From positions 62,001 through 126,000 of the IMG/VR virus record IMGVR_UViG_3300023208_000004: a stretch of DNA of 64,000 bases, one strand, 5' to 3'. Both the position numbers and the translations under genes were made by a program. Below, in pieces: positions 3,517 to 27,874 of the stretch. The notes under the pieces are model-generated. The model had not been told where the DNA came from. It saw only the letters and a list, made by a program, of their open reading frames with translations, and ran no database searches. The stretch's first letter is position 1, and each line of letters starts with the position of its first letter. The stretch comes from a virus.

Positions 3517-4617
3517 ATGAAAGAAAAGGTTATTGTAATTACTGGCATTCTAGGCATGGATGGCTCAAACATGGCGGAATATCTGCTTAAAAATGAACCA
3601 GATTTTAAAATAGTTGGAGTTCATCGTCGCTCTGCAAATGCAAATTTTAAAAATATAAAAGCTTTTGACAATAACCCTAAATTTTCTTTAGACTACTTGG
3701 ACCTAGCGGACAGCGTAAGCATAGAAACAGTTATCCGAAAATACTCTCCAATGTATTTTTTAAATTTTGGTGCTAATTCGTTTGTAGGTTGTAGTTGGGA
3801 TATGCCGCTGCAAGTTATAGATGTAAACGCATTAGGGGTATTAAGATGCCTAGAGGCTATAAAACAACACTGCCCAACTTGTAGATTTTATTCAGCAGGA
3901 AGTTCCGAAGAGTTTGGGAACGTGGACTATTCGCCACAAGACATAAAACACCCAATAAAACCAAGAAGCCCATACGGAGTATCAAAAGCTACAGCAAGAC
4001 ACATCGTTAAGGTTTATAGAGAGTCTTATGGACTATATGCAGTGCATGGAATATTATTCAACCACGAAGGAAGTCGTCGTGGAATAGAATTCGTGACAAA
4101 AAAAATAACAAACGGCGCTGCAAGAATAGTTCAATCTATTAAAAATAATCAAAAATTCGAGCCCATACAACTCGGAAACGTAGATGCAAAACGCGACTGG
4201 TCAGACTCTCGTGATTTTGTAGATGGCATCTGGAGAATGATTAACCAAGAAAAATATCGCAAACCCAATTGCGGTATCTTTTTCCCAAAAGATTATGTCC
4301 TCGCTTCAGGACGAACTAACAGCGTCAGAAAATTTGTAGAAGTGGCGTTTGAAAAACTAAATTTTTTCCAAAATTTAAGATGGCAAGGAACTGGTCTTAC
4401 AGAACAATTCACGGGAGATTTCATAAATAATACCGGCGAACCTTGGAGAGTTCCATTAGTCATTATCAATGAGAAGTTTTACCGACCAAACGAAGTAGAG
4501 CTTTTACTGGGGGATTCAACACCAGCAAGAGAAGAGTTACAGTGGAGTCCACAGATTTCGTTTGACAAACTTGTAGAAGATATGGTAAAATCAGACCTAG
4601 ATGAAATCTCCAAATAA
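3517..4617 (+). CDS. gmd: GDP-mannose 4,6-dehydratase
   Basis: The 366-residue enzyme is an extended short-chain dehydrogenase that converts GDP-D-mannose to GDP-4-keto-6-deoxy-D-mannose, the precursor of GDP-fucose, GDP-rhamnose and related sugars. Residues 10-16 give the NAD(P)-binding Gly-x-x-Gly-x-x-Gly, and Tyr153-x-x-x-Lys157 is the catalytic pair preceded by the 'AGSSEEFG' segment. The 'NHEG.RRG.EFVTKKIT' block is specific for the GMD family. Length matches the family. No partner reductase or epimerase lies in the window, so the deoxysugar would be completed by the host or by genes further left. The promoter for the next gene lies inside its last 60 bases. Confidence 0.92.
   Translation: MKEKVIVITGILGMDGSNMAEYLLKNEPDFKIVGVHRRSANANFKNIKAFDNNPKFSLDYLDLADSVSIETVIRKYSPMYFLNFGANSFVGCSWDMPLQVIDVNALGVLRCLEAIKQHCPTCRFYSAGSSEEFGNVDYSPQDIKHPIKPRSPYGVSKATARHIVKVYRESYGLYAVHGILFNHEGSRRGIEFVTKKITNGAARIVQSIKNNQKFEPIQLGNVDAKRDWSDSRDFVDGIWRMINQEKYRKPNCGIFFPKDYVLASGRTNSVRKFVEVAFEKLNFFQNLRWQGTGLTEQFTGDFINNTGEPWRVPLVIINEKFYRPNEVELLLGDSTPAREELQWSPQISFDKLVEDMVKSDLDEISK
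4562..4591 (+). promoter_or_regulatory. Sigma70-type promoter, near-leaderless
   Basis: TTGACA at 4562-4567, an 18-base spacer and TAAAAT at 4586-4591. The ATG of the next gene is nine bases after the -10 box, so transcription should start within a few bases of the start codon. There is no Shine-Dalgarno sequence. It lies inside the end of the gmd gene. Confidence 0.6.
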
Positions 4618-4948
4618 ATACCAAAAATTAATTTTAAGATTTCTTAAAGACACAAAATATTTTAAACAAACCGAATGGAAAAGAGAAACCGCGCTGGCAA
4701 AAAAACTATTACTAGAAAATTCAATAGATTTTTGGATGTCAGTTTCGCTGCCCTTTGAACTTAATTCTTTAGCTTGGTTTCTTACGCCAGAAGGCAAGAC
4801 TCACGTAGCGGTTACAGAAAAGAAGCTTGTCCTAGATTTGAAAAAAGAAGCTACATTCTCTATTATAGAAGAACCAAAACAAAGCGAAAATACAGAAGTT
4901 AAAAAACCTCAAACAATATTAGATTTTTTAAAACATGGCAAAACATAA
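4601..4948 (+). CDS. Hypothetical small protein with a C-terminal clamp-binding-like tail
   Basis: The 115-residue product is not recognised by family. Residues 1-80 are charged and mixed alpha/beta. A low-complexity acidic linker follows, and the protein ends in Gln-Thr-Ile-Leu-Asp-Phe-Leu-Lys, which fits the hexameric QxxLxF sliding-clamp-binding pattern of bacterial proteins. It also resembles the hydrophobic C-terminal tails with which T4 late-transcription proteins gp33 and gp55 bind the gp45 clamp. It has its own near-leaderless promoter and overlaps the UvsX-like gene by 14 bases. A late-transcription coactivator or a clamp-tethered replication factor are both possible. The function is an inference only. 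Confidence 0.55.
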   Translation: MKSPNKYQKLILRFLKDTKYFKQTEWKRETALAKKLLLENSIDFWMSVSLPFELNSLAWFLTPEGKTHVAVTEKKLVLDLKKEATFSIIEEPKQSENTEVKKPQTILDFLKHGKT

Positions 4949-6047
4949 ACAGACCGAAGAAGAAGAAAAGCCAAAAGAACTTTCTTCAGAACAACAAATA
5001 GATTCCTTTTTAAAGGATAATGAAGAGTTCCATTATAATAATGTAATCCAACAAGACTACGCTGTTTCAAGCGGAAGCCTTAAAATGGACATAGAAATGG
5101 GAGGAGGATTACGCCCCGGCATAGTAAGATTCAGTGGAGTTACAGAGGGGGGTAAAACCTCCTGCGCTCTTTCATTTGCCCGCTCTTTTCAAAAGAATAT
5201 ACCAAATTCCAAAGTCGTTTACATTAAAGCAGAGGGTCGGCTATCTGAAGATATAATTTCAAGAGCAGGCATTAACACAGACAAAGACAAATGGTTTGTA
5301 TTTAAATGCAATATTTACGAAACATCCGTGCAGCTTATTAATGAGCTAATACATAATAATCCCACTAACAGAAAATATTTTTTTATAATTGATTCAATGG
5401 ACTCTCTTAATTTAAAAGAGGACATGAATAGGGTGTTCGGAACCGCAAACAAAGTAGCAGGCGCAGCATACTTAACGGCAGATTTTTTAAAGAAAATGGC
5501 ATTACCGCTTTCTTCTTTAGGACACACCTGTATAATGATTTCGCAAATACGAACGGCGGTATCAATTAATCCATACGAAAAGAAAGACCCAAGAGTAACC
5601 AATGCGTCTGGGGGTAACGCGATGCTGCATTATAGTGACTGGATTTTAGAATTCCAAACTAGGTATCGCTCTGACCTAATAACGTCACTCCCAGAGTTGA
5701 AAGGAGAAGTTTTAGGACATTTTTGTAAGATTATCTTTAGAAAATCCCCAAACGAAAAAACATACAAAGAAATATCATATCCGATTAAATACGGAAGAAC
5801 GGGTGGCACAAGTATTTGGGTTGAATACGAAATAGCAGACCTGATGATAATGTTTGAAATGGTAAAGGTAAAAACCGCATGGATTACTGTAGAACCAGAA
5901 ATCTTAGAAGAACTCAAAAAACAAAAATTTGAAATTCCAGAAAAAATTCAGGGACTTGATAACTTTAGGAAACTTTTAGAAACTAATGAAAACCTAACAA
6001 AATACCTATACCAAAAATTTGAAAAAGTTTTAAAGAAAAATACATGA
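4935..6047 (+). CDS. uvsX: UvsX/RecA-like recombinase
   Basis: The 370-residue protein has a RecA-type ATPase core: Walker A Gly-Val-Thr-Glu-Gly-Gly-Lys-Thr at residues 68-75, a 'YIKAEG' strand, 'FFIIDSMDSL' as Walker B, and 'NASGGNAMLHYSDWILEF' as the loop-2 and polymerisation-motif region. Size is close to T4 UvsX (about 391 residues), and the lack of a long C-terminal RecA domain favours UvsX over host RecA. It would form filaments on ssDNA for recombination-dependent replication and repair. The gene overlaps its upstream neighbour by 14 bases and its downstream neighbour by 4 (ATGA). No UvsY was recognised. Confidence 0.85.
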   Translation: MAKHKQTEEEEKPKELSSEQQIDSFLKDNEEFHYNNVIQQDYAVSSGSLKMDIEMGGGLRPGIVRFSGVTEGGKTSCALSFARSFQKNIPNSKVVYIKAEGRLSEDIISRAGINTDKDKWFVFKCNIYETSVQLINELIHNNPTNRKYFFIIDSMDSLNLKEDMNRVFGTANKVAGAAYLTADFLKKMALPLSSLGHTCIMISQIRTAVSINPYEKKDPRVTNASGGNAMLHYSDWILEFQTRYRSDLITSLPELKGEVLGHFCKIIFRKSPNEKTYKEISYPIKYGRTGGTSIWVEYEIADLMIMFEMVKVKTAWITVEPEILEELKKQKFEIPEKIQGLDNFRKLLETNENLTKYLYQKFEKVLKKNT

Positions 6048-6460
6048 GACTAAAAAATACCTTTGGCAAATTGGTCTATAAAAACGTTTCAAAGCATATT
6101 ATTGATTGGGAGGGAAAGTCGCGCTCCCTTCTTCAATTTAAAACAAAACAATTTTTAAAACCATACTGGTGCGGACAAATCGTTTATGAAGAGTTTCCCG
6201 TGTATGGGACCAAAATGAAAGTTGACATTCTCAACGCTACAAAAAAAATAGCAATAGAAGTCAACGGCCCACAGCATAATTCATTTAATAAATTTTTTCA
6301 CCAAAACTCACCAGAGAGATATTTAAAATCCATTAAAAGAGATTATTCCAAACGGCAATGGCTGGAGCTTAACGATTTTACACTTATAGAAATAGAAGAA
6401 GAAGAAATTGAATTACTCTCGGAGAATTTCTTTTTTAAGAAATTTAATGTCACACTATAA
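6044..6460 (+). CDS. Vsr/DUF559-like PD-(D/E)XK endonuclease
   Basis: The 138-residue protein has the compact restriction-endonuclease fold of Vsr/DUF559-like nucleases. Asp61 lies in 'MKVDIL', and 'IAIEVNGPQH' (residues 69-78) contains Glu72 and His78. It ends in an 'RDYSKRQWLELNDFTLIEI' stretch that corresponds to the conserved C-terminal strand and helix. The usual Lys or Asp after Glu-Val is Asn74. It is coupled to uvsX by an ATGA overlap, so a role in recombination, mismatch or junction cleavage is plausible. The substrate is not known. Confidence 0.65.
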   Translation: MRLKNTFGKLVYKNVSKHIIDWEGKSRSLLQFKTKQFLKPYWCGQIVYEEFPVYGTKMKVDILNATKKIAIEVNGPQHNSFNKFFHQNSPERYLKSIKRDYSKRQWLELNDFTLIEIEEEEIELLSENFFFKKFNVTL

Positions 6461-6464
6461 TTTA

Positions 6465-6472
6465 GTGTAATT
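6465..6472 (+). promoter_or_regulatory. GTGTAA-type octamer (candidate phage promoter)
   Basis: GTGTAATT lies 7 bases before the ATG at 6480 and 16 bases before the ATG at 6489. The 16-base distance matches two minus-strand late genes with the same motif. It overlaps a small palindrome (6452-6468, 6-bp arms). This is the only plus-strand member of the set described in the findings. Confidence 0.4.
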
Positions 6473-6488
6473 ATATTTAATGAATCTT

Positions 6489-6758
6489 ATGCCAAAACAC
6501 AAAGACTTCAAATTTCCGGAAAAACTTTTGTCTCAAATTAATGAATGTTCTGGAGGAGGGTTTTGTATTTTTACCTTTGATGAATATGGTAAGCCTCAAG
6601 TTTACAGCCAATTTGATAATCCAATTTATGCAATGGCAATGCAATATTATATAGAGAATTGGACGGCAGCGGTTTCTAATGTTCAATTAAATACATTTTC
6701 AAATGCAGTTGACAGAGCTATCAATCCAGAATCAGGAGACGGTTCCGAAAAAGCATAG
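6489..6758 (+). CDS. Hypothetical small protein
   Basis: An 89-residue protein from ATG 6489, or 92 residues from the upstream ATG at 6480. It is not recognised. It begins 'MPKHKDFKFPEKLLSQINECSGGGF' and has an aromatic-rich middle ('YAMAMQYYIENW') and a polar C terminus. The later ATG is preferred because it sits 16 bases after a GTGTAATT motif, as at two late genes. It lies between the nuclease gene and the helicase promoter and ends five bases before that promoter's -35 box. No function is proposed. Confidence 0.55.
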   Translation: MPKHKDFKFPEKLLSQINECSGGGFCIFTFDEYGKPQVYSQFDNPIYAMAMQYYIENWTAAVSNVQLNTFSNAVDRAINPESGDGSEKA

Positions 6759-6763
6759 CAGAC

Positions 6764-6791
6764 TTGACAAAGCTTCAAACATCGCTATAAT
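6764..6791 (+). promoter_or_regulatory. Sigma70-type promoter, leaderless geometry
   Basis: TTGACA at 6764-6769, a 16-base spacer and a perfect TATAAT at 6786-6791. Six bases separate the -10 box from the helicase ATG at 6798, which puts the predicted transcription start on the start codon itself. No Shine-Dalgarno sequence is present. Confidence 0.8.
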
Positions 6792-6797
6792 ACCATT

Positions 6798-8285
6798 ATG
6801 GCGAATAATTTAGTTTCCCTTCAAGTAGAAAAGCACGTATTAGGCGGTATAATTAAAAACCCAGATGTCTTCGCAGATATAGAGAGATTCGTTCAAGATT
6901 CTGATTTTTTTAACAGAGTCCATTCTGTATTATTCTCAATAATTAAACAGACCCTTTCTAAGCAAGAAAAAATAGACAAAATTATTCTCGCTCAAAAAAT
7001 TAAAAATCTTGGAATTGTTTTTAAAGACGATATAGATATTTTCGACTATGTAGATTCAATTGCTTTCACACAAATTACGCCTACGGCGACAATAGACGCG
7101 GCCAAGGAGCTTGTAAAGCTAAGAGTATTAAGAGAGGTCTGCTCTACAAGCTCAGAAATAGAAAAATACGTCAGAGAAAACGCCAACGAACCGATAGAAA
7201 AACTCATAGCAAACGTAGATAGCATATATTCCAAAAAAATAGAATCTTATTCTTTTAACGACGAACCAGAAAATGTATTCGATAACCTAGCCGCTAGCGT
7301 GTTAGAAACTGGGAAAAACCCCAAAGACGAAACTGGATTTAAAACGCCATTTAGTGAATTCAACAGATTATATGGCGGGTTGCGCCCAGCGAACATCTAC
7401 GCTATCGCATCAAGGCCGGGACAGGGTAAAACAACATTTCTTAACTACATAGCGTATAAAACAAGCATCATTAATAAAATCCCTGTTCTTGTTTTAGACA
7501 CGGAAATGATGACTAAAGAAATACAATTCAGAAAAGCCGCCGCCCTCACCGGAGTCCCACTTTGGTATCTTGAAACGGGTAACTGGAACAGAAATGTAGA
7601 GCTTCGAGACAAAGTAACAAACGGACTCAACAAAATAGAAAAAACCCCATATTACCACCATCACATAGGTAACAGAAATATAGACGAAGTTTGCGCCATC
7701 ATCCGAAGGTGGTATTGGAGCAGAGTTGGTAGGGGAAACCCATGTTTAGTGGTATATGACTATTTAAAACTTACCGGAGAAAAAGTTGGCGCAAACTGGG
7801 CCGAACACCAAGCAATAGGAGAAAAAGTTGATAAGCTCAAGAAAATTTCAGAAGAAATCAATTGTCCAATTTTTACAGCTATTCAAATTAACAGAACTGG
7901 AGAAAATTTTAATAGAAGCGCCGACTCTGTTGTTGACGACAGTTCTGTTCTCGCACTATCAGACAGGCTTCAATGGTTTGCGTCGTTCGTCTCTATTTTT
8001 AGAAGAAAAACCATAGACGAAATTGCCCTTGACGGAACAGAGTTTGGAACACACAAGCTTGTTCCGCTAAAAACTAGATTTCAAGGAAAAGACGCCGCAG
8101 GACATCAAGACTTGGTGAGGAGAAGGCTTCCAGATGGCTCGCAAAGCTATGTTCAGAATTATCTAAGTTTTGATGTAAATAACTTTGCATTAACAGAACG
8201 TGGCTCGCTTAATGATATTATAGAACACCAAAGAGCACAAATAACACCCGACGATGGAAGCCAAAACGACGGAGAAACTCTTTGA
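6798..8285 (+). CDS. dnaB: DnaB-like replicative DNA helicase
   Basis: The 495-residue protein starts with a DnaB-type N-terminal helical domain ('EKHVLGGIIKNPDVF', residues about 11-25). The RecA-like motor has Walker A Arg-Pro-Gly-Gln-Gly-Lys-Thr with Lys211, 'LVLDTEM' as motif H1a, 'CLVVYDYLKL' as Walker B near residue 320, and a 'TAIQINRT' sensor segment. It unwinds duplex DNA 5' to 3' as a ring on the lagging strand. It is the first gene of an operon with primase (4-base overlap) and a nuclease, driven by the leaderless promoter at 6764. Length is close to bacterial DnaB. Confidence 0.9.
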   Translation: MANNLVSLQVEKHVLGGIIKNPDVFADIERFVQDSDFFNRVHSVLFSIIKQTLSKQEKIDKIILAQKIKNLGIVFKDDIDIFDYVDSIAFTQITPTATIDAAKELVKLRVLREVCSTSSEIEKYVRENANEPIEKLIANVDSIYSKKIESYSFNDEPENVFDNLAASVLETGKNPKDETGFKTPFSEFNRLYGGLRPANIYAIASRPGQGKTTFLNYIAYKTSIINKIPVLVLDTEMMTKEIQFRKAAALTGVPLWYLETGNWNRNVELRDKVTNGLNKIEKTPYYHHHIGNRNIDEVCAIIRRWYWSRVGRGNPCLVVYDYLKLTGEKVGANWAEHQAIGEKVDKLKKISEEINCPIFTAIQINRTGENFNRSADSVVDDSSVLALSDRLQWFASFVSIFRRKTIDEIALDGTEFGTHKLVPLKTRFQGKDAAGHQDLVRRRLPDGSQSYVQNYLSFDVNNFALTERGSLNDIIEHQRAQITPDDGSQNDGETL

Positions 8286-9208
8286 ATAATTCAAACGTAA
8301 AAGACATACTACAAACGATAGGCTATACACCAAACGAATTTGGTAGGTCGTTTAGATGCAAGCCCCTGTATAGGGATTCCGACAATGCCACAGTCCTTTG
8401 TGTTGACAAATCTACAGGCTGTTGGTATGATTTTAAAGAAGGAATTGGAGGCTCCCTAAATCAGCTTGTCAAGCTTACGCTTAAACTAAAATCAGACCAA
8501 GAAGCAGAAGATTTTTTATCTGAAAAAAAATATATTCAAGCTATAGAACCTCAAGAAGAACCGCTTATAACGCTTCCTAAAATCTTTCCACAAGAACAGC
8601 TTAAAAAGCTCGAACCAGAAACATCATACTGGAACAAACGAGGGATTTCAAACGAAACGTTGTCAATATTTAAAGGCGGCATTGCTCTCGACGGAAGAAT
8701 GTGTAATAGATATGTCTTCCCTATCCCAAATTCAAAGGGCGAAACCGTTGGATACTCAGGAAGAGATTTAACAAATAGCGATAAAAGACCAAAATGGAAA
8801 CATATAGGGCATAAAAAAGAATGGTGTTATCCTCTTTTTTTTAATAAACAATTTATTGCTGACGGGAAAGAAGCGGTCATGGTAGAGAGTATAGGAGATA
8901 TGCTTGCGCTTTGGGAGGCTGGAGTTAAGAATTCTATTGTTACATTTGGGCTCAAAATTAATCCTAAAATTATTTCTTATCTTATTAAAATAGATATTTC
9001 TAAGATAATAATAGCCCTCAATAACGATAATCAAAAAAATTTTGCAGGAAATAAAGCCTCGAATGAAATGGAAGAACAACTGTCTAATCATTTTGACAGA
9101 AACCAACTATGTATAGCGCTGCCGTCTAAAAAAGACTTTGGAGAAATGGAGAAAGAAGAAATAAAAACATGGAAACAGAACCTAAAGTCCTCTCAGCTTC
9201 AAAAATAA
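8282..9208 (+). CDS. DnaG-like DNA primase
   Basis: The 308-residue protein contains a degenerate N-terminal zinc-ribbon-like region ('FRCKPLYRDSDNATVLCV', then 'WYDFKEGIGGSLNQLVKL'), in which the second cysteine pair has been lost. A TOPRIM core follows: 'VMVESIGDMLALWEAG' with the catalytic Glu near residue 199, and 'IIALNNDN' near 243, where the usual DxD is Asn-Asp-Asn. It would make RNA primers for lagging-strand synthesis. The start is TTG in a TTGA overlap with the helicase stop, favouring coupled translation of helicase and primase. It is much shorter than bacterial DnaG because the C-terminal helicase-binding domain is absent. Confidence 0.78.
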   Translation: MNNSNVKDILQTIGYTPNEFGRSFRCKPLYRDSDNATVLCVDKSTGCWYDFKEGIGGSLNQLVKLTLKLKSDQEAEDFLSEKKYIQAIEPQEEPLITLPKIFPQEQLKKLEPETSYWNKRGISNETLSIFKGGIALDGRMCNRYVFPIPNSKGETVGYSGRDLTNSDKRPKWKHIGHKKEWCYPLFFNKQFIADGKEAVMVESIGDMLALWEAGVKNSIVTFGLKINPKIISYLIKIDISKIIIALNNDNQKNFAGNKASNEMEEQLSNHFDRNQLCIALPSKKDFGEMEKEEIKTWKQNLKSSQLQK

Positions 9209-10158
9209 AAACTTTTGAAAACTGTTCATGGTTGTATTGGGGAAACTACCACCTCAAACTGCCTCAAAAGTCAAACGAAGGAGCGCAAAGAGGAACCATT
9301 TGTCATTTAATTTTTGAAATTCTTTTAAATCCAAAACATAAACTCCATTTTAAAAAAATCAAAAAAGCAGAGACAATAACAAGTTCTCCACCAATTCGAC
9401 GGCTAGTAATCAAGCATTTAAAGAAAATGCAAATCAATACAGATAAAAATTTTAAACTAATTGATGAAATGATTTTAGTTGGTATTAATAATGATTTTTT
9501 TATTCGTGGTGCAATATTATTAGACCCAGAATACGAATTCAACCTTACAAACGAGACGCCCAAATATTCACTAACTGGGTTCATAGACAAAGCCGCAGAA
9601 AACACTAAAAACGGGACGTTTATTATTACAGACTATAAATCTAGTAAATTTAAATTTGACGAAAACGACTTAGAATCAAACATCCAAGCGATGATATACA
9701 GTTTAGTAGCAAAAAAAATCAAACCAGAATTAACACCCATAGTCAAATTTATATTTTTAAGATATGGTAAAGACCCTATCCAAACAGTTCAATTCAACGA
9801 CGTAACACTTAAAGGATTCGAGCATTATCTACAAAAAATAAACGAAACCCTAAATAATTTTTCCGAAGAACAAGCGGTGCAAAATTTTGCGGCGGATAAA
9901 AAACCCAAAGGAGGCGGATTCAACGGCTCTCTTCTTTGTGGGCTTGCAAAATCTCCAAATGAAAAGAAAAAAGACGGACAACCCATGTGGGCGTGTCCAT
10001 ATAAATTTTCTTTTAAATATTTCATTTTAAAAGATAAAAATGGCAAAATATTAAAATCAGATTTTAACAATTCATTTACACCCAAAGAAGAGGAAACGGT
10101 AGAAGAATTGACATATCAAGGGTGTCCACGGCATAAAGCTACAAGCCCAGAATTCTAA
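9169..10158 (+). CDS. RecB/Cas4-type PD-(D/E)XK nuclease, probably Fe-S containing
   Basis: The 329-residue protein carries the RecB/Cas4-like nuclease motifs: 'RGTICHLIFE' (His46, Glu50), 'GFIDKA' with Asp140, 'ITDYKSSK' with Asp155-x-Lys157, and a downstream 'NIQAMIYS' helix that corresponds to the Q-x-x-x-Y motif. One cysteine near the N terminus (Cys19) and three C-terminal ones (in 'LLCG', 'WACPY' and 'GCPRHK') match the one-plus-three layout that binds a 4Fe-4S cluster in AddB and Cas4. It overlaps the primase gene by 40 bases and is the last gene of the helicase operon. It probably resects DNA ends for recombination. Confidence 0.75.
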   Translation: METEPKVLSASKIKTFENCSWLYWGNYHLKLPQKSNEGAQRGTICHLIFEILLNPKHKLHFKKIKKAETITSSPPIRRLVIKHLKKMQINTDKNFKLIDEMILVGINNDFFIRGAILLDPEYEFNLTNETPKYSLTGFIDKAAENTKNGTFIITDYKSSKFKFDENDLESNIQAMIYSLVAKKIKPELTPIVKFIFLRYGKDPIQTVQFNDVTLKGFEHYLQKINETLNNFSEEQAVQNFAADKKPKGGGFNGSLLCGLAKSPNEKKKDGQPMWACPYKFSFKYFILKDKNGKILKSDFNNSFTPKEEETVEELTYQGCPRHKATSPEF

Positions 10159-10187
10159 TTGACAAAACACGAAACAAAGGCTATGAT
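10159..10187 (+). promoter_or_regulatory. Sigma70-type promoter, leaderless geometry
   Basis: TTGACA at 10159-10164, a 17-base spacer and TATGAT at 10182-10187. Six bases then separate it from the ATG at 10194, the same spacing as at the helicase gene. No Shine-Dalgarno sequence is present. It starts immediately after the nuclease stop codon and drives the polymerase operon. Confidence 0.78.
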
Positions 10188-10193
10188 AGAACT

Positions 10194-10973
10194 ATGCAAA
10201 GCTTGCCATTATGGAAGTCTCATTTTTCAATAGGAAAATCCATTTTGACCTTAGCTAAAGCTGGCGAAACAGACAATTCTTGTCCTGATTCTATTTTTGA
10301 TTTAGCCGAAAGCGCAGGGCTCAAAGAGATTATCCTAGTAGAAGACTCGATTAGCGGCTTTTTGGAGGCTTTTACCAACTCAAAGAAAAGTAAGAAAAAA
10401 TTAATCTTTGGACTTAGACTGTCTGTTGTAGAAAACATGGAAGAAAAAACAGAACAGTCGCTAGACAAAGTATGTAAATATGTAATTTTTGCCAAAGATA
10501 CAATTGGCTACGAAACTCTAATTAAAGTCTCTTCGCTTGCAGCAAAGAACGGTTTTTATTATGAGCCCAAAATAGATTTTAAAAATCTTAAAGATGTGTG
10601 GAGCGAACATTTGCAGCTTGCCGTTCCATTTTATGATTCATTTATTCATAAAAACGTATTGGAATGCGGTGCCTGTGTGCCAGATTTTTCTTTTACAACT
10701 CCAGTCTTCTTCATGGAAGATAACGATGTGCCTTTCGACGAAATACTTTCGACCCAAGTGACCGACTTTTGTTCAAAAAACAAATTTGAATCTGTCAAGA
10801 CAAAAAGCATTTACTATAATCTCAACAAAGATTTTATTACATATCTAACCTTTAGATGTATAAATGCGAGGACTTCTCTGGAAAGGCCAGAATTACCGCA
10901 TATGTGCAGTCAAGAATTTTCCTTTGAATCATGGAAAAAACAAAATCAAATTTCAAATTTAACACCCAACTAA
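10194..10973 (+). CDS. DNA polymerase III alpha, separate PHP domain
   Basis: The 259-residue protein aligns by eye with the N-terminal PHP domain of DnaE. The family start 'HxHSxYSLLDG' appears as 'LWKSHFSIGKSIL'. 'IFDLAESAGLKEIILVEDSISGFLEAF' matches the 'ALTDHGNLFGA' region, 'KKLIFGLRL' matches 'IKPIIG', and 'FTTPVFFMEDNDVPFDEILSTQV' matches the 'VATNDVHYL..ED' segment. Most PHP metal ligands (the first His, the Asp-His pair) are gone, so it is probably structural, as in E. coli, where the PHP domain docks the proofreading exonuclease. The frame ends exactly where the palm would begin; the rest of the polymerase is encoded at 12029. Confidence 0.75.
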   Translation: MQSLPLWKSHFSIGKSILTLAKAGETDNSCPDSIFDLAESAGLKEIILVEDSISGFLEAFTNSKKSKKKLIFGLRLSVVENMEEKTEQSLDKVCKYVIFAKDTIGYETLIKVSSLAAKNGFYYEPKIDFKNLKDVWSEHLQLAVPFYDSFIHKNVLECGACVPDFSFTTPVFFMEDNDVPFDEILSTQVTDFCSKNKFESVKTKSIYYNLNKDFITYLTFRCINARTSLERPELPHMCSQEFSFESWKKQNQISNLTPN

Positions 10974-11401
10974 AAATTGGAAAATCTGGAGAAGACCTGT
11001 TTAAAAAACATTATGGGCCGATTTACGGCATACGTCCAGACTCCGAAAGTATGGAATATGATTTCATTTTAGAAAATGGGGCCAAAGTAGAGCTTAAAAC
11101 AGACACTTACGCAATGAGCGATACGCCAAATTTTTTCTTTGAAAGATTTAGCGATATTAATACAAAAAAACTCGGTGGCCCTTGGAGGGCAAAAAAAGAT
11201 GAAGTAGATTATTTCGTTTATCTTTACGTCAAAGACAAAATGTTTTACTGGTTTAACCCAATTCTCCTTTGCGCCGAGCTTGACAAAATTACAAAAAAGA
11301 TGCAAACTAAGCATATTAGAAATATAGCTTGGACAACCAGCGGATTTGCAGTTCCACGAGAGCTTTGCTTACACGTTTGCCTAAGACAAGAAAAGATATA
11401 A
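10931..11401 (+). CDS. PD-(D/E)XK-type endonuclease-like protein
   Basis: The 156-residue protein shows a minimal restriction-endonuclease fold pattern: 'GKSGEDLFKKHYG' with Glu21, 'MEYDFIL' with Asp44, and 'AKVELKTD' with Glu54-x-Lys56. This Glu-Asp-ExK arrangement is typical of phage junction- or flap-processing nucleases. It overlaps the PHP gene by 43 bases and ends one base before the exonuclease gene, so it is inserted in the middle of the polymerase operon. No sequence-specific DNA-binding domain is visible. Whether it assists the replisome or repairs recombination intermediates cannot be decided from the sequence. Confidence 0.6.
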   Translation: MEKTKSNFKFNTQLKIGKSGEDLFKKHYGPIYGIRPDSESMEYDFILENGAKVELKTDTYAMSDTPNFFFERFSDINTKKLGGPWRAKKDEVDYFVYLYVKDKMFYWFNPILLCAELDKITKKMQTKHIRNIAWTTSGFAVPRELCLHVCLRQEKI

Positions 11402-11402
11402 C

Positions 11403-12047
11403 ATGGATGGACACCTTTTAAGATTTGACAAGCAAAAAAAGCTCACATTTATAGACTGCGAGACATACAACCTATGCCTCTCTTTTGTTAAGAACAGGCC
11501 TTGGCAAATAGCCTTAATTGATGTCATTGGTAACGAAATCATAAAAGAAACAGATTTACTAATAAATTGGCCCAAAGAAAAAAATCTCGGAATCAGCGTC
11601 AAAGCCGCGCAAATGACAAGACACGACCCATCTAAGGTAGAAAGCTTAGGGATTTCACCAGAAGAAGCTTTTGATATTTTAGATGAAAAACTTAAAACAG
11701 CAGACTACATATTAGGCCACAATATTTTGGGATTTGACGTTTACCTAATTAGAGAATATTATAGACTAATGGGCTTTAAGACAGACTTTTTTTTAAAAAA
11801 AATCATTGACACAAAATGTCTAGCTCAAGGAATAAAACTTTCTACGCCATTCAACGGAACCGAAAATTTACTTAATTATCAATATCGAATGTATAATTGC
11901 CCAGTAAAAGGCGTTAAAACAAACCTAGCCTTGCTTGGGAAGGAATACGAAATAGAGCATGATTACAAAAATCTGCACGACGCCCTAACCGACCTTCAGT
12001 TAAACGTAAAAATTTGGAACAAAATTAAATGGCAGGTTTCAATTTAA
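11403..12047 (+). CDS. dnaQ: DnaQ-like 3'-5' proofreading exonuclease
   Basis: The 214-residue protein is a DEDDh exonuclease. ExoI is 'FIDCETYN' (Asp18, Glu20), ExoII is 'ILGHNILGFDVYL', and ExoIII is 'LHDALTDLQLN' with the general-base His. It is the counterpart of the epsilon subunit and would remove misincorporated nucleotides from the polymerase encoded next to it. Its gene lies between those for the separate PHP and polymerase parts, which fits the known docking of epsilon on the PHP domain. It overlaps the polymerase frame by 19 bases. No clear clamp-binding peptide was seen. Confidence 0.88.
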   Translation: MDGHLLRFDKQKKLTFIDCETYNLCLSFVKNRPWQIALIDVIGNEIIKETDLLINWPKEKNLGISVKAAQMTRHDPSKVESLGISPEEAFDILDEKLKTADYILGHNILGFDVYLIREYYRLMGFKTDFFLKKIIDTKCLAQGIKLSTPFNGTENLLNYQYRMYNCPVKGVKTNLALLGKEYEIEHDYKNLHDALTDLQLNVKIWNKIKWQVSI

Positions 12048-14608
12048 TGAATACAGAACTCTTTTTAGAAAAATTTAAAGAAATTGAACTACCTTTGCAC
12101 GGAGTCAGACTTCCAAGGTTTGAGGTTAGCGAATCAGACAAGGCCAAGCTGAAACTGAAAAAAAACGCCGATAACTATGCGTTTTTAAGAGAACTTTGCG
12201 TTGAATCCTTTAAGGGTCTAAAACTCTCAAAAGATTCACAAGCCCATAAAGAATATGGAGAAAGAGTAAAATACGAGCTTGAAATTTTAAAAGAGCTTGG
12301 GTTTGTGGATTATGTTTTAATGGTATGGGATGTCATTAATTACTGTCGAACACACGGTATTCCAACTGGATTAGGTAGGGGAAGTGCTGCGGGTAGCTTG
12401 GTCTTGTTTTTGATAGGCGTGACAAAGATAGACCCAATCAAGCACAAATTATATTTTGAAAGATTTGTTTCTAAAATTAGAGCCAAAAAACAGGTCATAG
12501 ACGGAATTACTTACCTAGATGGCTCGCTAATGTGTGACGTTGATTTGGATATATGCTACTACAGAAGAGGCGAAGTGATTAAATACCTAGAAAACAAATA
12601 CTCTGGGAAAGTTTCAAAAATCTTGACGTTTAATACTTTGAGTGGTAAATTACTAATGAAAGAGTGCGGCAAAGTAGTGGGAAGTAAAAGCGAACAAGAA
12701 ATGAACGAAATCAGCCATTTGATACCCCGGCTGCACGGTGTAGTAAGCGACATTTCAGAAGCTTATGAAGATGTTTCAGAGTTTAAGAAATGGTGCGACG
12801 AAAATGAGCAAATATACCAAATAGCCCTTAAACTAAGAGACTTAAACAAAAACAAAGGGGTTCACCCGTCGGGAATTTTGATTTCATTTGATGAACTTGA
12901 GAAAACTTGCCCAACCGAACTATCCTCAGATAAGGATAGCGTATCATCTTATGATATGAATTGGATTTCAATGTTCAATATTAAATTAGACGTATTAGGA
13001 CTTAGAGGCGTTTCTGTTGTTGATGACGTATGCAAATCTGTTGGTATCGAGGCAAATGACATCAACTTAGACGACCCCGCAATTTATCAAAATTTACAAA
13101 ACCTAAAAGCAAGACATGGCCTATTCCAAATCGAGGCCGACCTAGCTTACAAAGTTGTTCAGAAAGTCAAACCCAAAAACCTAGAAGAACTTAGTGGCGT
13201 GTTGGCCCTAGCCAGACCGGGAGCTATGGCGTTTGTTGACCAATACTCTTTATATACAAACCATCAAACCTATCAACCTATTCACCCCTTCTTTGATGAG
13301 ATTTTGAAAGAAACTGGTGGCGTTGTTCTTTATCAAGAACAGCTAATGAAAATGGCAAATAAAATTGGTTTTACTTTAGATGAATCAGAAATCATTCGCC
13401 GCGTAGTCGGCAAAAAGAAAATAGAAGAAATGAAGCAATGGGAACAAAAAGTCAAAGACAAAATCTCAGAAAATAAATTAGAAGAAGAAATAGGAAAAAT
13501 TTTCTGGAAAATTTTAGACGCGAGTAAAAATTATTCGTTCAACCGGTCACATTCGCTGGCTTATTCGTCTCTTTCAGCAATTACAATTTATCTAAAATTT
13601 AAATACCCACAGCAATTTTATCTGTCTTTGTTGAAGATGACCAAACATGAACCAGACCCAATTGGAGAAATTTCCAAAACTCACAAAGAAATGGCGCAGT
13701 TTAACATCAAGCTACTACCACCACACCTGCTCATGTCCGACATGGACTTTAAAGTAGAAAGCAAAGATATAAGATTCGGACTATTATCCGTAAAAGGAAT
13801 TTCAAACAAATCAATCTCCAAGCTTAATAAATTCAAAAACGAATACTCGAATAAATTTGAAGTATTTGAAGCCGCAAGTGAAGCGGAATTAAATATCGGA
13901 GCGCTTTCAGCTCTTATTCAAGCGGGAGCTTTCGATAACAATTTAAGACAGTCTCGAAGCTATATTGTATATGAAGCTCAATTATGGAATCTTCTTACCA
14001 CCAAAGAAAAGAAAACCGCCCTATTACTTGGTAAAGAAAACGACTTTTCGTTGGTGAAAATTTTAAATACTCTTATGTCGCTAAAAGACGAAAAGGGTAA
14101 GCCAATCATTAAGCCGTCCCGCTGTGAAACCATTAAGAAAAACTCAGACCCCTATAAGAAAATCTACGAACAAAATAAATCGTCGGAAAAGTTTGCTAAC
14201 TGGTGGTATGAAAATAAGCTACTTGGATATAGTTGCACAGTTAATTTGATTGACATTTTTAAAGAAAAAATGCAGTCCCTAGTTCCCATAAAAGACATTT
14301 TAGACGCCACAAGTGGATTAGGAGTCGCTTTCGTCGGGACAATAACAGACCAACCAAAAACCGGCAAATCTAAAGCGAAGGGTGCAAAATACGCTAAAAT
14401 GAACGTTTCAGACGAAACCGGAACAATAACTACTTTGATTTTTAACAATAATCTAAATGAGTGCGAAACGCTTAATGGCAAACTACCAGAAGAAGGGGAT
14501 ATTGTTATTGTCAAAGGCTCAAAAAAAGAAGACGCTGTTTTTGCAAACCTGATTGCAGTTCAACAGTCAAAGATATATACAAAACTTTCAGAATTAAAAA
14601 ATTCCTGA
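12029..14608 (+). CDS. dnaE: DNA polymerase III alpha (C-family), lacking the PHP domain
   Basis: The 859-residue protein begins at the palm of DnaE. 'HGIPTGLGRGSAAGSLV' (109-125) is the nucleotide-binding loop, 'CDVDLDI' (Asp170, Asp172, Asp174) provides two catalytic aspartates, and 'IKLDVLGLRG' supplies the third. 'GVHPSGILI', 'VVLYQEQLMKMA', 'RRVVGKKK' and 'SFNRSHSLAYS' are further palm and fingers signatures. An OB-fold domain lies near the C terminus ('GVAFVGTITDQPKTGKSKA'). An alternative start is the ATG at 12047, which forms a TAATG overlap with the exonuclease stop and would remove six residues. Its last 15 bases overlap a convergent gene. All catalytic residues are present. Confidence 0.92.
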   Translation: MAGFNLMNTELFLEKFKEIELPLHGVRLPRFEVSESDKAKLKLKKNADNYAFLRELCVESFKGLKLSKDSQAHKEYGERVKYELEILKELGFVDYVLMVWDVINYCRTHGIPTGLGRGSAAGSLVLFLIGVTKIDPIKHKLYFERFVSKIRAKKQVIDGITYLDGSLMCDVDLDICYYRRGEVIKYLENKYSGKVSKILTFNTLSGKLLMKECGKVVGSKSEQEMNEISHLIPRLHGVVSDISEAYEDVSEFKKWCDENEQIYQIALKLRDLNKNKGVHPSGILISFDELEKTCPTELSSDKDSVSSYDMNWISMFNIKLDVLGLRGVSVVDDVCKSVGIEANDINLDDPAIYQNLQNLKARHGLFQIEADLAYKVVQKVKPKNLEELSGVLALARPGAMAFVDQYSLYTNHQTYQPIHPFFDEILKETGGVVLYQEQLMKMANKIGFTLDESEIIRRVVGKKKIEEMKQWEQKVKDKISENKLEEEIGKIFWKILDASKNYSFNRSHSLAYSSLSAITIYLKFKYPQQFYLSLLKMTKHEPDPIGEISKTHKEMAQFNIKLLPPHLLMSDMDFKVESKDIRFGLLSVKGISNKSISKLNKFKNEYSNKFEVFEAASEAELNIGALSALIQAGAFDNNLRQSRSYIVYEAQLWNLLTTKEKKTALLLGKENDFSLVKILNTLMSLKDEKGKPIIKPSRCETIKKNSDPYKKIYEQNKSSEKFANWWYENKLLGYSCTVNLIDIFKEKMQSLVPIKDILDATSGLGVAFVGTITDQPKTGKSKAKGAKYAKMNVSDETGTITTLIFNNNLNECETLNGKLPEEGDIVIVKGSKKEDAVFANLIAVQQSKIYTKLSELKNS

Positions 14609-18538: not shown

Positions 18539-18558
18539 TTTTATTATAATCTAATAAA

Positions 18559-23418: not shown

Positions 23419-23430
23419 GTGTTTTATGTC

Positions 23431-23459
23431 TTGACAAACGCCTAAATCCTTCGTAATAT
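23431..23459 (+). promoter_or_regulatory. Sigma70-type promoter in divergent intergenic gap, near-leaderless
   Basis: TTGACA at 23431-23436, a 17-base spacer and TAATAT at 23454-23459, then ten bases to the ATG at 23470. No Shine-Dalgarno sequence is present. It occupies most of the 51-base gap between two divergent genes. The same AT-rich stretch read on the minus strand contains GTGTATAT, a weak relative of the late motif. Confidence 0.7.
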
Positions 23460-23469
23460 ATATACACTT

Positions 23470-24012
23470 ATGATACAACTTTATAAACCCAATTCTAGGG
23501 TAACAGGAGCAGCGTGCGGCATATGGTTTAGCACAACCGAACAGGCGTTTTTCTTTCAAATTATCAAACAGGCTAGCTGGAATGAAAAAACAAAAACCGG
23601 TTCTTTTGCAGAAAATAGAACTAACCAAGATAAAAAAGTCGTAGTCAAATTCAGCGTATTTGAAATAGGAGGATTTCTTAATGCGATTGACAACAATACG
23701 CAACTAAGCAAATATCACAAAACCGCCAATCATAGCACCCAAATTAGATTTGGCCCATACATGGATAAAGTTGACCCAAGTAAACAACTTGGATTTTCAC
23801 TATCAGTCATTAAAGAAAAGAAAGAAGATTCAGTAAATAAAATCTCATTCCTAATCGGAATTACGCCAGACGAAGCAAGGGTCATTAAAGAATATTTAAC
23901 ATTTGGAATAAATGCCATCCTTAATGCCCCAAGAGAAAAAGAGCCCGCAAAAGAACCCATCCAAGAACAGGAACAGCAAGAGGCTCCTAATTCTCCTGAA
24001 CCAGCCTTCTAA
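23470..24012 (+). CDS. Putative ssDNA-binding protein
   Basis: The 180-residue protein has a compact beta-rich domain (residues about 10-150) with the alternating strands 'ACGIWFS', 'KVVVKFSVFEIGGFLNAI', 'STQIRFGPYM' and 'KISFLIGIT', ending in a helix 'DEARVIKEYLTFGINAIL'. The pattern is reminiscent of Whirly/PUR-type nucleic-acid-binding folds. It is followed by a disordered Glu/Gln/Pro-rich acidic tail ending in '-EPAF', like the acidic aromatic-terminated tails by which SSB recruits partner proteins. No other SSB was found in the window. It has its own promoter and overlaps the next gene by one base (TAATG). Family assignment is inference. Confidence 0.5.
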   Translation: MIQLYKPNSRVTGAACGIWFSTTEQAFFFQIIKQASWNEKTKTGSFAENRTNQDKKVVVKFSVFEIGGFLNAIDNNTQLSKYHKTANHSTQIRFGPYMDKVDPSKQLGFSLSVIKEKKEDSVNKISFLIGITPDEARVIKEYLTFGINAILNAPREKEPAKEPIQEQEQQEAPNSPEPAF

Positions 24013-25937
24013 TGAAGAAAAAAAAGATTTTATTCCAATCAGATTTTAGTTTAGCGAAAACTGGTTTCGGCAGAAATGCAAAAGCTTTGCTTGAATATCT
24101 TTATAAAACAAATAAATATGAAATTATTCACTATTGCGTTGGTATAAACTATTCTAATCCAGAATTAGAAAGAACTCCTTGGAAGTCTGTCGGTTGTCTG
24201 CCAGACAGCCAACAGGAGCTTCAAGAACTAAACCGCGACCCACATATAGCCAGACAAGCCGGATACGGGGCGCACTTTTTAGATAAAGTAATCTACGAAA
24301 ATAAACCAGACGTTTATCTAGCTGTCCAAGACATATGGGGCGTAGATTTCGCAATTGGAAGAAAATGGTTCAATAAAATTAATTCAGTAATTTGGACTAC
24401 GCTAGACTCTTTACCGATACTACCAAGCGCCATTGACGCAGCGAAAAAAACAAAAAATTATTGGGTGTGGAGCAATTTCGCAACCAAAGCTCTACATGAA
24501 AAGGGGTTAAATCATGTCAAAACGCTACATGGAGCCATAGATGATAAGTTTTTTTATAAACTTTTAGACTCTCAAAAGCAATCTCTCAGACAAAAGTTTA
24601 ATATTCAAGATTCATTCGTTGTTGGATTTGTATTTAGAAACCAACTAAGAAAATCCGTTCCCAATCTTCTCGAAGGATATGCTCTTTTTAAGAAACAAAA
24701 CCCAGAACTTAAAAATGCAAAACTATTATTACATACACATTTTGGAGAGGGATGGAAAATTCACAAATTAGCAGAAGAATATCAAATTCCAAAATCCGAC
24801 ATTTTAACAACATACGTCTGTAAAAATTGCGCCCAGTATCAGGTTAAAGAATTTTCCGGACAAGACATAAAATGTCCATATTGTAATGATGAAAAAGGAC
24901 AGGTGACTACACAGCCGGGTATAGGCGTTTCAGAAGCCCAGTTAAATGAGATATACAATCTTATGAACGTATATTGCCACCCATTTACGTCAGGAGGGCA
25001 AGAAATTCCCATTCAAGAAGCTAAACTCTGTGAGCTTGTCACGCTCGTAACTAACTATAGCTGCGGAGAAGAGATGTGCGAACAAGAAGCTCACTCACTT
25101 GCACTAGACTATGCCAAGTATAGAGAGCATGAAACCGAGTTTATCAAAGCCTCTACGTCCCCAAATTCAATAGCAAAACAGTTAAGTAAGGTTTATGAAC
25201 TTAACAAAAAAAATAACAGCATATTAAAACAAATGGGTAAGTCTGCAAGAGATTGGGTTTTGAAAAACTTTAGCATCTCTGTCATTGGTAAAAAAATAGA
25301 AGATTTTATTGACAACTCTCCAGAGGTTGAATTTTCTTTCTCTCAAGAGGAGGAACAAAAAAACCCTTTCGCAGAAATTAATTCATCTCTCCCCGATGAG
25401 GAATGGGTGCTTTCTTTATATAAATCAATCCTAAAAATGTCAGACATTACAAAAGAGGATGAAGGATTTAAGTATTGGATACAGGAATTATCTAGGGGTG
25501 CGTCCAGACAAGAAATAGAAAAATTCTTCCGCACCGAAGCCATGAAGAAAAATCAACAAAATAAAACTCATAATTTTGAAGATTTGCTTGGGCGAGAAGG
25601 TAAAGACAAAAGAATACTCTATGTTATGCCAGAATCCATTGGGGATGTGTTTCTATCAACGGCTCTTTTTAAATCTTTAAAAGAGTCTTACCCAGAACAC
25701 AATCTGTATGTCGCCACAAAACCAGAAAACTTTGAAATACTCGAAGGAAACCCAAGCGTTTTTAAAATTCTCTCTTATTCTCCGGTAATGGACAACTTAC
25801 TTTGGCTTGAGGGGCATGGAAAACATCAAGGATTTTTCAAAGCGGCTTTTCTGGCCCATTTAGGGACTCAAAGAATTTTAAACTACATTCATAATGGAGA
25901 AGATAGAAGCCCAATCGAATTGAACTACAACAGGTAA
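24012..25937 (+). CDS. Multidomain glycosyltransferase: GT4 + zinc ribbon + DUF4214 + GT9 N-half
   Basis: The 641-residue protein joins several parts. Residues 1-450 form a GT-B (GT4-like) glycosyltransferase, with 'QSDFSLAKTGFGRNAKALLEYL' at the N terminus and 'SGGQEIPIQEAKLCE' as the donor-binding Glu motif. A four-cysteine zinc ribbon (CKNC near 271, CPYC near 290) is inserted in its C-lobe. Residues about 460-515 match DUF4214 ('LYKSILKMSD...GFKYWIQELSRGASR'). From residue 527 the N-terminal lobe of a GT9 enzyme begins ('ILYVMPESIGDVFLSTALFKSL'). The GT9 C-lobe is encoded by the next gene, joined by a TAATG overlap. It probably builds a phage-directed glycan. Confidence 0.72.
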   Translation: MKKKKILFQSDFSLAKTGFGRNAKALLEYLYKTNKYEIIHYCVGINYSNPELERTPWKSVGCLPDSQQELQELNRDPHIARQAGYGAHFLDKVIYENKPDVYLAVQDIWGVDFAIGRKWFNKINSVIWTTLDSLPILPSAIDAAKKTKNYWVWSNFATKALHEKGLNHVKTLHGAIDDKFFYKLLDSQKQSLRQKFNIQDSFVVGFVFRNQLRKSVPNLLEGYALFKKQNPELKNAKLLLHTHFGEGWKIHKLAEEYQIPKSDILTTYVCKNCAQYQVKEFSGQDIKCPYCNDEKGQVTTQPGIGVSEAQLNEIYNLMNVYCHPFTSGGQEIPIQEAKLCELVTLVTNYSCGEEMCEQEAHSLALDYAKYREHETEFIKASTSPNSIAKQLSKVYELNKKNNSILKQMGKSARDWVLKNFSISVIGKKIEDFIDNSPEVEFSFSQEEEQKNPFAEINSSLPDEEWVLSLYKSILKMSDITKEDEGFKYWIQELSRGASRQEIEKFFRTEAMKKNQQNKTHNFEDLLGREGKDKRILYVMPESIGDVFLSTALFKSLKESYPEHNLYVATKPENFEILEGNPSVFKILSYSPVMDNLLWLEGHGKHQGFFKAAFLAHLGTQRILNYIHNGEDRSPIELNYNR

Positions 25938-27112
25938 TGCATTTACTGAAAACATATTCATTAGCCAGCGGAGCCATGATAGACAAGCCATTTATCTATC
26001 AGAAATTTTTTCCATTACCATTTAGTGATTTTATTACATTTCATCCATGCTCTAAAAATTCTAAAACCTATGATTATTGGCAAGATGTCATTGATGAAAT
26101 TTTTCCAGTATTAAATAATTTAAATATCAAAATAATACAAATTGGCGCATCTGGGGAACATTCTTATAAAAACTGCATTAACATACAAGGCGGGACGGGT
26201 TTGGGACAAGTGGCGTATCTTTTAAACAAGGCGCGACTGCACTTAGGCGCTGATAGTTTTCCAGTTCACATGGCGTCTTCAATGTCAAAAAAGATAGTCG
26301 CGCTTTATGCAAATAATTTTATATCAAACGTTTCTCCATATTGGAGTAGGCCAGAAGACGTTGCCCTTTTAGAACCAAACAGAGGGAAAGACAATCCCAA
26401 TTTCGTATTAGACGAAAATCCAAAAACAATAAATAAAATTCCAACAGAGGATATTGTTAATTCTGTATTCAAGCTGCTTGAAATAAATTCAAAAAGCCAA
26501 AACAAAACAATATTTGTTGGTTCTAGGTATTCAAACACAAATCTTATAATGGATTTTGTTCCAAATCAAGTTGTCAACTTTGCAGGGCAAAAAATGCCGA
26601 CAATCGAACTGAGAATGGACTTAGAGTTTAATGAAGAAATCCTTAAAAAACAACTTTCTACCTCAAAGTGCTCCATTATTACAAACAGGCCAATAAGTAA
26701 AGATATTCTTGTTTATTTTAAGAAAAATGTCGTGGCTGTTTTTTATATTGTAGAACAGTCTGACAACCCAGAGTTTATTAGATTACTTAAAAATCTCGGA
26801 ATTAAAACCGCGCTGATTTCCTATCTAAGCGAGGAAGAGCTTTCTACTAAAAAAATAAACTACTACGAACTTGGAAAAATCAATAGGATTCCAGCCACAA
26901 ATAAAGAAATTTTAGATTTATTGAATAAAGAGTCCAATCTTTATTATAAATCAAACAAATTAATCCACAGTAACAAAAACATATTCTTTAGCGTTGCAGA
27001 CTTCAAAAATAATCTACCAGCAAGCATAAATCAATACGTAAAAATTAACAAATTAAATGAAGATTTTGCTTCTGAAATTGAACATTTCAAAATCGTAAAA
27101 AAGCTTGACTAA
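25937..27112 (+). CDS. GT9 (heptosyltransferase-like) C-terminal lobe plus unknown domain
   Basis: The 391-residue protein starts with the second half of a GT9 enzyme: 'FITFHPCSKNSKTYDYWQDVI', 'IKIIQIGASGE', 'GQVAYLLNKARLHLGADSFPVHMASSMSKKIVALYAN'. The GT9 N-lobe is at the end of the preceding gene. From about residue 185 a second region follows ('TIFVGSRYSNTNLIMDFVPNQVV') that I do not recognise; it resembles a stand-alone Rossmann-like sugar-binding unit. The start ATG shares its A with the upstream TAA, and the upstream sequence in this frame is open. A -1 shift would fuse the two proteins, so a sequencing frameshift or a real split are both possible. Confidence 0.65.
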   Translation: MHLLKTYSLASGAMIDKPFIYQKFFPLPFSDFITFHPCSKNSKTYDYWQDVIDEIFPVLNNLNIKIIQIGASGEHSYKNCINIQGGTGLGQVAYLLNKARLHLGADSFPVHMASSMSKKIVALYANNFISNVSPYWSRPEDVALLEPNRGKDNPNFVLDENPKTINKIPTEDIVNSVFKLLEINSKSQNKTIFVGSRYSNTNLIMDFVPNQVVNFAGQKMPTIELRMDLEFNEEILKKQLSTSKCSIITNRPISKDILVYFKKNVVAVFYIVEQSDNPEFIRLLKNLGIKTALISYLSEEELSTKKINYYELGKINRIPATNKEILDLLNKESNLYYKSNKLIHSNKNIFFSVADFKNNLPASINQYVKINKLNEDFASEIEHFKIVKKLD

Positions 27113-27133
27113 TCAACAGGAACAGGGTAATCT
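27105..27133 (+). promoter_or_regulatory. Sigma70-type promoter, leaderless geometry
   Basis: TTGACT at 27105-27110 (overlapping the end of the glycosyltransferase gene), a 17-base spacer and TAATCT at 27128-27133, then six bases to the ATG at 27140. This is the same -10-to-ATG distance as at 6764 and 10159. No Shine-Dalgarno sequence directly precedes the ATG. Confidence 0.65.
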
Positions 27134-27139
27134 ATCAAG

Positions 27140-27874
27140 ATGAGCGAAAACACTCCAAAACTAACTACGCGTAATGAACTTGGCCTCATAGACACGGTAA
27201 CTTATGCATTTAACGAAGATGGCTCAATTGATTGGCGCAAAATGATTAACCCCAAATACCTTGTCCCGAACAAACAAGTTTTTGATAAAAGAAAAAAAGA
27301 AATCCCCCAATCAATAGAGGGTCTTGAAGATAAAGAATTGTTAATTCTGCTCCACGGCTTAAAAGAACTTGCAAAAATTAGGGGCTTTTCCTCTGTCGAA
27401 TATAAGGTTTCTGCGCCATCTGACTCTTGTATTTTGGCGGTCTGTTCAATATCTTGGATTCCTAATTACGAAACAGAAAACAGACCCGTCCTTTTTTCTG
27501 CCATCGGAGACGCGACGCCATTTAACACTAATGGATTTGGTAGAACATTTTTAGGACCAATAGCAGAAAATAGGTCTTTCGTTCGGTGCGTTAGAAACTT
27601 TTTGAGAATTAATATCACCGGACAAGACGAAATCGGTGGACAAAACCCTTCAGAAGAACCCTCTCAGGAGTCTTCTCAAAAGGAAACGATAGTCACCCCA
27701 GCCTCTTTATTAAACGAGGTAATGAAAGGAAAAAAAATAACATTTGAACAAGTAAAATCCAAACTTAAAAAAGAAGGATTTAAGGATGCAGACGTTCTTT
27801 CTTCGTTAGAAGAAATTCCCAAGGTTAAAATTTTTGAACTTATAGAAAGAATCAAAAACTACTCTCAATGCTAA
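27140..27874 (+). CDS. Possible Rad52-like single-strand annealing protein
   Basis: The 244-residue protein has a central region with the pattern of Rad52-superfamily and Sak-type annealing proteins: 'LHGLKELAKIRGFSSVEYKV', 'CILAVCSISWIP', then 'SAIGDATPFNT' and 'AENRSFVRCVRNFLRI', which resembles the conserved 'GdAs...AeTRA.nRAlr' block. After residue 165 comes a Ser/Glu-rich linker and a helical C-terminal domain ('ASLLNEVMKGKKITFEQVKSKLKKEGF'), possibly for partner binding. It has its own leaderless promoter. Together with the UvsX-like protein it would provide recombination functions. The match is by pattern only and should be treated as tentative. Its stop overlaps a convergent gene. Confidence 0.45.
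   Translation: MSENTPKLTTRNELGLIDTVTYAFNEDGSIDWRKMINPKYLVPNKQVFDKRKKEIPQSIEGLEDKELLILLHGLKELAKIRGFSSVEYKVSAPSDSCILAVCSISWIPNYETENRPVLFSAIGDATPFNTNGFGRTFLGPIAENRSFVRCVRNFLRINITGQDEIGGQNPSEEPSQESSQKETIVTPASLLNEVMKGKKITFEQVKSKLKKEGFKDADVLSSLEEIPKVKIFELIERIKNYSQC

Follow-up and report, generated by a model that had tools for sequence, protein, structure and literature searches.

In a stretch of 64,000 nucleotides (nt) of viral DNA (bases 62001-126000 of the 164,097-base IMG/VR record IMGVR_UViG_3300023208_000004; this whole stretch is called the window), five promoters of the sigma70 type, at positions 4562, 6764, 10159, 23431 and 27105, lie directly in front of ATG start codons. This is a known bacterial kind of gene start, which is found here at unusual density and is evolutionarily conserved in a large group of uncultivated aquatic viruses of bacteria. 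Very probably these promoters, likely read by the host polymerase, give early mRNAs with no leader or almost none, in a host that would be poor in Shine-Dalgarno (SD) sequences. The late genes have another box, GTGTAAT.

As such, promoter-like boxes are barely more frequent than in shuffled sequence: a consensus scan of positions 4000-15000 gave 44 sites versus 33 ± 6.4 in the shuffles, which is not significant. Therefore, it is the position of the boxes relative to start codons that needs testing. Gene starts were called with one simple open reading frame caller on the window and on another five stretches of the record, and the start-linked arrangement was defined as TTGAC-N-TAnnnT with a spacer of 15-19 nt, ending 3-13 nt upstream of an ATG. 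This arrangement is present at 20/178 ATG gene starts versus 36/4361 (0.8%) of the other ATGs (Fisher p = 6e-15). The gap between the -10 box and the ATG is most often 6 nt (9/20) and never 13-17 nt, and the spacer is most often 17 nt (14 of the 20 promoter-bearing starts), in line with sigma70-type promoters having TTGACA-like and TATAAT-like boxes 16-18 nt apart. With a gap of 6 nt the usual start point (+1) would fall on the A of the ATG; with gaps of 9-10 nt there is room for 3-4 nt of leader, and some messages would then be near-leaderless rather than leaderless. Upstream of the starts TTGAC is enriched at 30-39 nt in the phage and at 35-39 nt in its relatives, and a -10-like TAnnnT stands about 10-12 bp before the start codon well above chance, as in so-called TA-led genes. 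Leaderless translation favours AUG (or GUG) starts, and of the 21 start codons behind such promoters in this genome 20 are ATG and one is GTG.

The density of these gene starts is also exceptional. The 164-kb record has 34 matches (207 per Mb) to the pattern TTGACN{17,19}TANNNTN{5,8}ATG versus one to the reversed pattern, which served as control. In 119 genomes of the phylum Actinomycetota and 115 of Verrucomicrobiota (phyla named after the record titles of one locus each) at most about 30 matches per Mb were found; many genomes of both phyla exceed the control count, but none comes near the density of the phage. Likewise, 23/224 genes have a leaderless-type start here versus 0-1 in stretches of 49 kb from each of five other phages. 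The five promoters listed in the first-pass annotation are thus too few, since there are about 20 such starts genome-wide, including RNA-repair genes and genes without assigned function. Besides those in Table 1, the promoters precede the genes of a RuvB-like ATPase, an RlaP-type nucleotidyltransferase, two RNA ligases, a phosphoesterase and a DUF3127 protein followed by a sigma factor. They are distributed over the genome, with none in the late structural region on the minus strand.

For comparison with relatives, the best 80 of 219 IMG/VR matches to the DnaB protein were read (loci L006-L085, about 57-61% identity); a search of phage records for near-identical DNA gave no match. In these relatives the full arrangement is found at 66/587 non-redundant starts (80-85% identity) where about 2 are expected, with gaps mostly of 6-10 nt. 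Alignment with related phages had been proposed as a check, and the arrangement is conserved wherever an ortholog exists, which is the case for four of the five genes; gene 27140 has none in L006-L085. The exact arrangement stands before gene 4601 in 19/28 non-redundant relatives, before dnaB in 23/26 (again with gaps mostly of 6-10 nt) and before gene 23470 in 21/21; before the PHP-domain gene it is found in 10/25, or 22/25 if one mismatch in TTGAC is allowed. Together with the position statistics, this strongly supports the leaderless placement. For each of ten neighbouring genes no exact match was found in the relatives, which agrees, like the tight operons, with the earlier proposal that genes without their own promoter rely on overlaps.

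A different origin can be considered for the 4562 promoter, as it sits within the preceding gene, that of GDP-mannose dehydratase (3517-4617), at its 3' end. Matches could arise by chance or coding constraint in AT-rich DNA, and this site coincides with a conserved protein motif, FDxLxxxMV, which is kept also in relatives that have no 4601 gene behind it. The site was at first accepted as a by-product of this motif, and promoter-like matches exceed shuffles only weakly when position is disregarded. The codon analysis overturned this. The aspartate codon is GAC in 10/10 relatives where a 4601 ortholog follows versus 3/11 otherwise (Fisher p = 0.001, kinship ignored), with GAC making up 21% of the aspartate codons in these genes; in two of the three exceptions (L033, L046) an ATG lies 12 nt past the -10 box. 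The valine codon is GTA in 9/9 versus 5/13 (Fisher p = 0.006, kinship ignored), and L020 has the isoleucine codon ATA in place of valine, so that the TA is retained. As GAC and GTA are fixed only in relatives with a gene start behind them, the 4562 promoter appears to be maintained by synonymous codon choice within another gene. With the position and conservation tests also contradicting it, an origin by chance or coding constraint has a next to negligible probability.

The promoters could also be real and yet produce ordinary leaders, if transcription started farther upstream or if the true start codons lay downstream. The distance from the -10 box to +1 is variable, and five promoters of the genome have longer gaps of 18-47 nt, some of them with A/C-rich leaders and no SD. 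However, the modal gap of 6 nt in the phage and of 6-10 nt in the relatives, with almost nothing at 13-28 nt, is not what ordinary leaders would give, no SD core is found behind any such promoter, and the orthologs of dnaB, the PHP-domain gene and gene 23470 align within 0-3 residues of the proposed starts in nearly all relatives. We consider ordinary leaders very improbable.

Several points nevertheless weigh against messages that are strictly leaderless. The genes dnaB, 4601 and that of the PHP-domain protein lie within runs of genes on the same strand and no clear terminator was found before any of the three; read-through from upstream could therefore yield leadered copies of their messages. 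In the relatives the gaps of 9-10 nt before dnaB permit leaders of 3-4 nt, and several 4601 orthologs (e.g., L030, L031, L068, L072) apparently start with TTG 6 nt past the -10 box, which is unusual for a leaderless mRNA. In addition, the start-based counts depend on the output of a simple gene caller, and those in relatives ignore kinship beyond the redundancy threshold.

The late genes have a second box. GTGTAA is found within 40 nt upstream of 9/34 late genes versus 3/160 others (p = 9e-6), and before the late genes of relatives identified by their terminase at 23/121 starts, over a background of 0.13 per 5-nt bin. Its distance to the start is bimodal, either about 15-19 nt, which is close to leaderless, or 25-34 nt. 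GTGTAAT is thus a probable late promoter class of the clade, as judged from sequence; to our knowledge, such a late box is not known from any described phage. The genome encodes three sigma-70-like proteins (Table 1), and the early promoters are probably served by the host sigma factor, the late ones by a phage sigma factor. A GTGTAAT box also occurs in 6440-6480 before gene 6480-6758, between the RecA-like region and dnaB, where relatives keep (A)AGTGTAAAA; here a promoter of the late type would be located inside the early replication cluster.

The absence of SD sequences pointed out in the first-pass annotation is true of the listed starts, since none of the 20 promoter-bearing genes (0/20) has an SD core, again as in TA-led genes. 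It is, however, not distinctive for them, because SD sequences are scarce throughout the genome: an SD core precedes only about 10% of all starts versus 30-52% in stretches of the five other phages. By SD duplex energies no gene class differs significantly from shuffled sequence, the late genes being borderline (p = 0.08). The genes L001:13744-14640, L001:15010-17208 and L005:16828-17334, which have longer A/C-rich leaders (AACAACAAAC...), are likewise without SD.

The placement may also be read as a deliberate strategy, in which intact 70S ribosomes would make the early proteins from leaderless mRNAs at times when free 30S subunits or initiation factors run short or are attacked. 70S particles can indeed initiate leaderless mRNAs, of which lambda cI is an example from a phage (PMC9031893), the arrangement is found on early-type genes and the late structural genes have a different box, and the density is far above that of the sampled cellular genomes. 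Yet the poverty in SD is genome-wide, some late GTGTAAT boxes also lie near the ATG, so that leaderless initiation would not be confined to early genes, and neither a factor gene nor a regulation suggesting such a switch was found. A deliberate strategy of this kind is improbable in our view. The earlier suggestion that the messages do without canonical initiation, or prefer 70S initiation, is a hypothesis, and copying the habit of an SD-poor host would fit the data equally well and be the simpler account.

We therefore favour sigma70-type promoters from which early mRNAs with no leader, or hardly any, would be made. The host housekeeping RNA polymerase would read these promoters early in infection, transcription would start on the start codon or 0-4 nt before it, and the host, which like the phage would make little use of SD sequences, would translate the resulting messages. 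Genes without a promoter would follow in tight operons, and the late genes would be read from GTGTAAT, probably with one of the three phage sigma factors. The assignment to an early class is drawn from gene content (DnaB, PHP, RuvB-like ATPase, RNA repair genes) and from the absence of the promoters in the late region. It is from sequence that we infer the 5' ends at start codons, the use of the host sigma factor, the early timing, the leaderless translation and the SD habit of the host. A more far-reaching picture, in which leaderless mRNAs carry most of the early programme of a widespread aquatic phage clade, as an adaptive bypass of factor-dependent initiation with promoters written into the preceding genes, followed by a switch to a new GTGTAAT class read by phage sigma factors, is rather unlikely.

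The coordinates, spacers and gaps of the five listed sites were confirmed by direct reading of the sequence (Table 1). The -35 box often reaches into the stop codon, or even the coding region, of the gene before it, so that the whole promoter fits into a space of 27-40 nt. At 10159 the -35 box comes immediately after the stop codon that ends the preceding PD-(D/E)XK nuclease gene, and at 27105 it shares bases with the stop codon of gene 25937-27112. The 23431 promoter is AT-rich and an alternative -10 reading is possible a few bases downstream. The early replication genes that were said to be served by these promoters are found behind two of them, as dnaB at 6798 and the PHP-domain gene at 10194, but genes 4601, 23470 and 27140 have no assigned function. 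An exonuclease-like gene (11403-12047) stands between the PHP-domain gene and the DNA polymerase III alpha gene (12029-14608), and sugar-modification genes (GDP-mannose dehydratase and glycosyltransferases; 3517-4617, 2673-3506, 24012-27112) adjoin the replication genes.

Table 1. Predicted promoters, the genes behind them, late boxes and sigma factor genes. Positions refer to the window unless marked as genome; gap, distance from the -10 box to the ATG.
Feature	Position	Strand	Details
Promoter	4562-4591	+	TTGACA 4562-4567; TGGTAAAAT containing TAAAAT 4586-4591; spacer 18 nt; gap 9 nt to ATG 4601
Gene without assigned function, 115 amino acids	4601-4948	+	Behind the 4562 promoter; next gene 4935-6047 RecA/UvsX-like
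Promoter	6764-6791	+	TTGACA 6764; spacer 16 nt; TATAAT 6786-6791; gap 6 nt; in 39-nt space before dnaB
DnaB-like replicative helicase gene	6798-8285	+	ATG 6 nt past -10
Promoter	10159-10187	+	TTGACA 10159; spacer 17 nt; TATGAT 10182-10187; gap 6 nt to ATG 10194
PHP-domain gene	10194-10973	+	ATG 6 nt past -10; separate from DNA polymerase III alpha gene 12029-14608
Promoter	23431-23459	+	TTGACA 23431; spacer 17 nt; TAATAT 23454-23459; gap 10 nt; in divergent gap 23419-23469
Gene without assigned function, 180 amino acids	23470-24012	+	Heads operon with glycosyltransferase-like genes 24012-25937 and 25937-27112
Promoter	27105-27133	+	TTGACT 27105; spacer 17 nt; TAATCT 27128-27133; gap 6 nt
Gene without assigned function, 244 amino acids	27140-27874	+	ATG 6 nt past -10
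GTGTAAT box	10-35 nt upstream of genes 62802-63263, 58115-58630, 39560-47995 and 34244-36124; also L098-L110	-	Conserved in terminase relatives
Sigma-70-like gene	genome 44961-45575	-	Preceded by leaderless-type promoter and DUF3127 gene
Sigma-70-like gene	genome 55686-56420	+	One of three phage-encoded
Sigma-70-like gene	genome 137604-138284	-	One of three phage-encoded

The phage record also holds about 20 tRNA genes (L001, L003-L005) and a transfer-messenger RNA (tmRNA) gene (L003:10153-10542, minus strand) with an unusually long predicted tag (ANKKALFAAVGKGVIRASRKLAVA); a DNA search with this tmRNA in phage records gave no similar sequence. As for the host, a scan for DnaB relatives in 84,980 bacterial and archaeal genomes returned only distant matches of 22-27% identity, so that no host could be assigned via binning. 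An actinobacterial host was guessed from a gene content resembling that of large actinobacteriophages; against it, no WhiB gene was found, and the cultured actinobacteriophages Peregrin and Tribute have similar genes without the arrangement. For Patescibacteria, which are a host candidate on general grounds, no description of leaderless mRNAs was found in the literature. The data suggest a host that is SD-poor and prone to leaderless messages, which narrows the host search.

In uncultivated phages, the position of promoters alone can predict where transcription starts and which codon begins the gene. For a large clade the analysis supplies two usable consensus sequences, GTGTAAT for late promoters and, for early ones, TTGAC[AT], 17 nt and TAnnnT about 6 nt before ATG, frequently with TGG or TGA preceding the TA. 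It also offers a clear case of a promoter that synonymous codons preserve within another gene.

Rhodococcus phage Peregrin (MH153807) and Streptomyces phage Tribute (MN369743) share with this phage DnaB, primase, DNA polymerase III alpha, RecA and many tRNAs; Peregrin in addition has, as here, a split polymerase III alpha, as well as rII-like proteins and RNA ligases, and Tribute a tmRNA and a Ro-like protein. However, where compared, their proteins are only about 27-31% identical, an SD core is present in 45% and 30% of their genes, respectively, and each has one leaderless-type start in 49 kb.

T4-type phages combine early promoters for the host sigma factor with a separate late box served by phage sigma-like factors. 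A similar division into classes may exist here, with presumed host-sigma early promoters and a distinct late box next to phage sigma-like factors. In difference to T4, the late box is GTGTAAT, and the T4-like relative VR5 is without the leaderless placement.

Leaderless transcription is predicted for about a fifth of bacterial species (PMC9581028). The recognised sign of a leaderless gene in bacteria is a -10 signal some 12 bp before the start (Zheng et al. 2011, PMC3160421), and such TA-led genes are common in Actinobacteria and Deinococcus-Thermus (PMC3160421). The gene starts described here resemble them in the TAnnnT some 12 bp before the start codon, the lack of an SD and the sigma70-like -10 box, but they belong to a phage clade and carry a strong TTGAC -35 box, and their pattern occurs 34 times per 164 kb versus at most about 30 per Mb in the cellular genomes sampled. 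With lambda cI they would share that a phage gene is read from a leaderless mRNA, as predicted here; whereas cI is a single regulated gene, this arrangement comprises about 20 promoters per genome, lies outside the late region and is conserved in many genomes.

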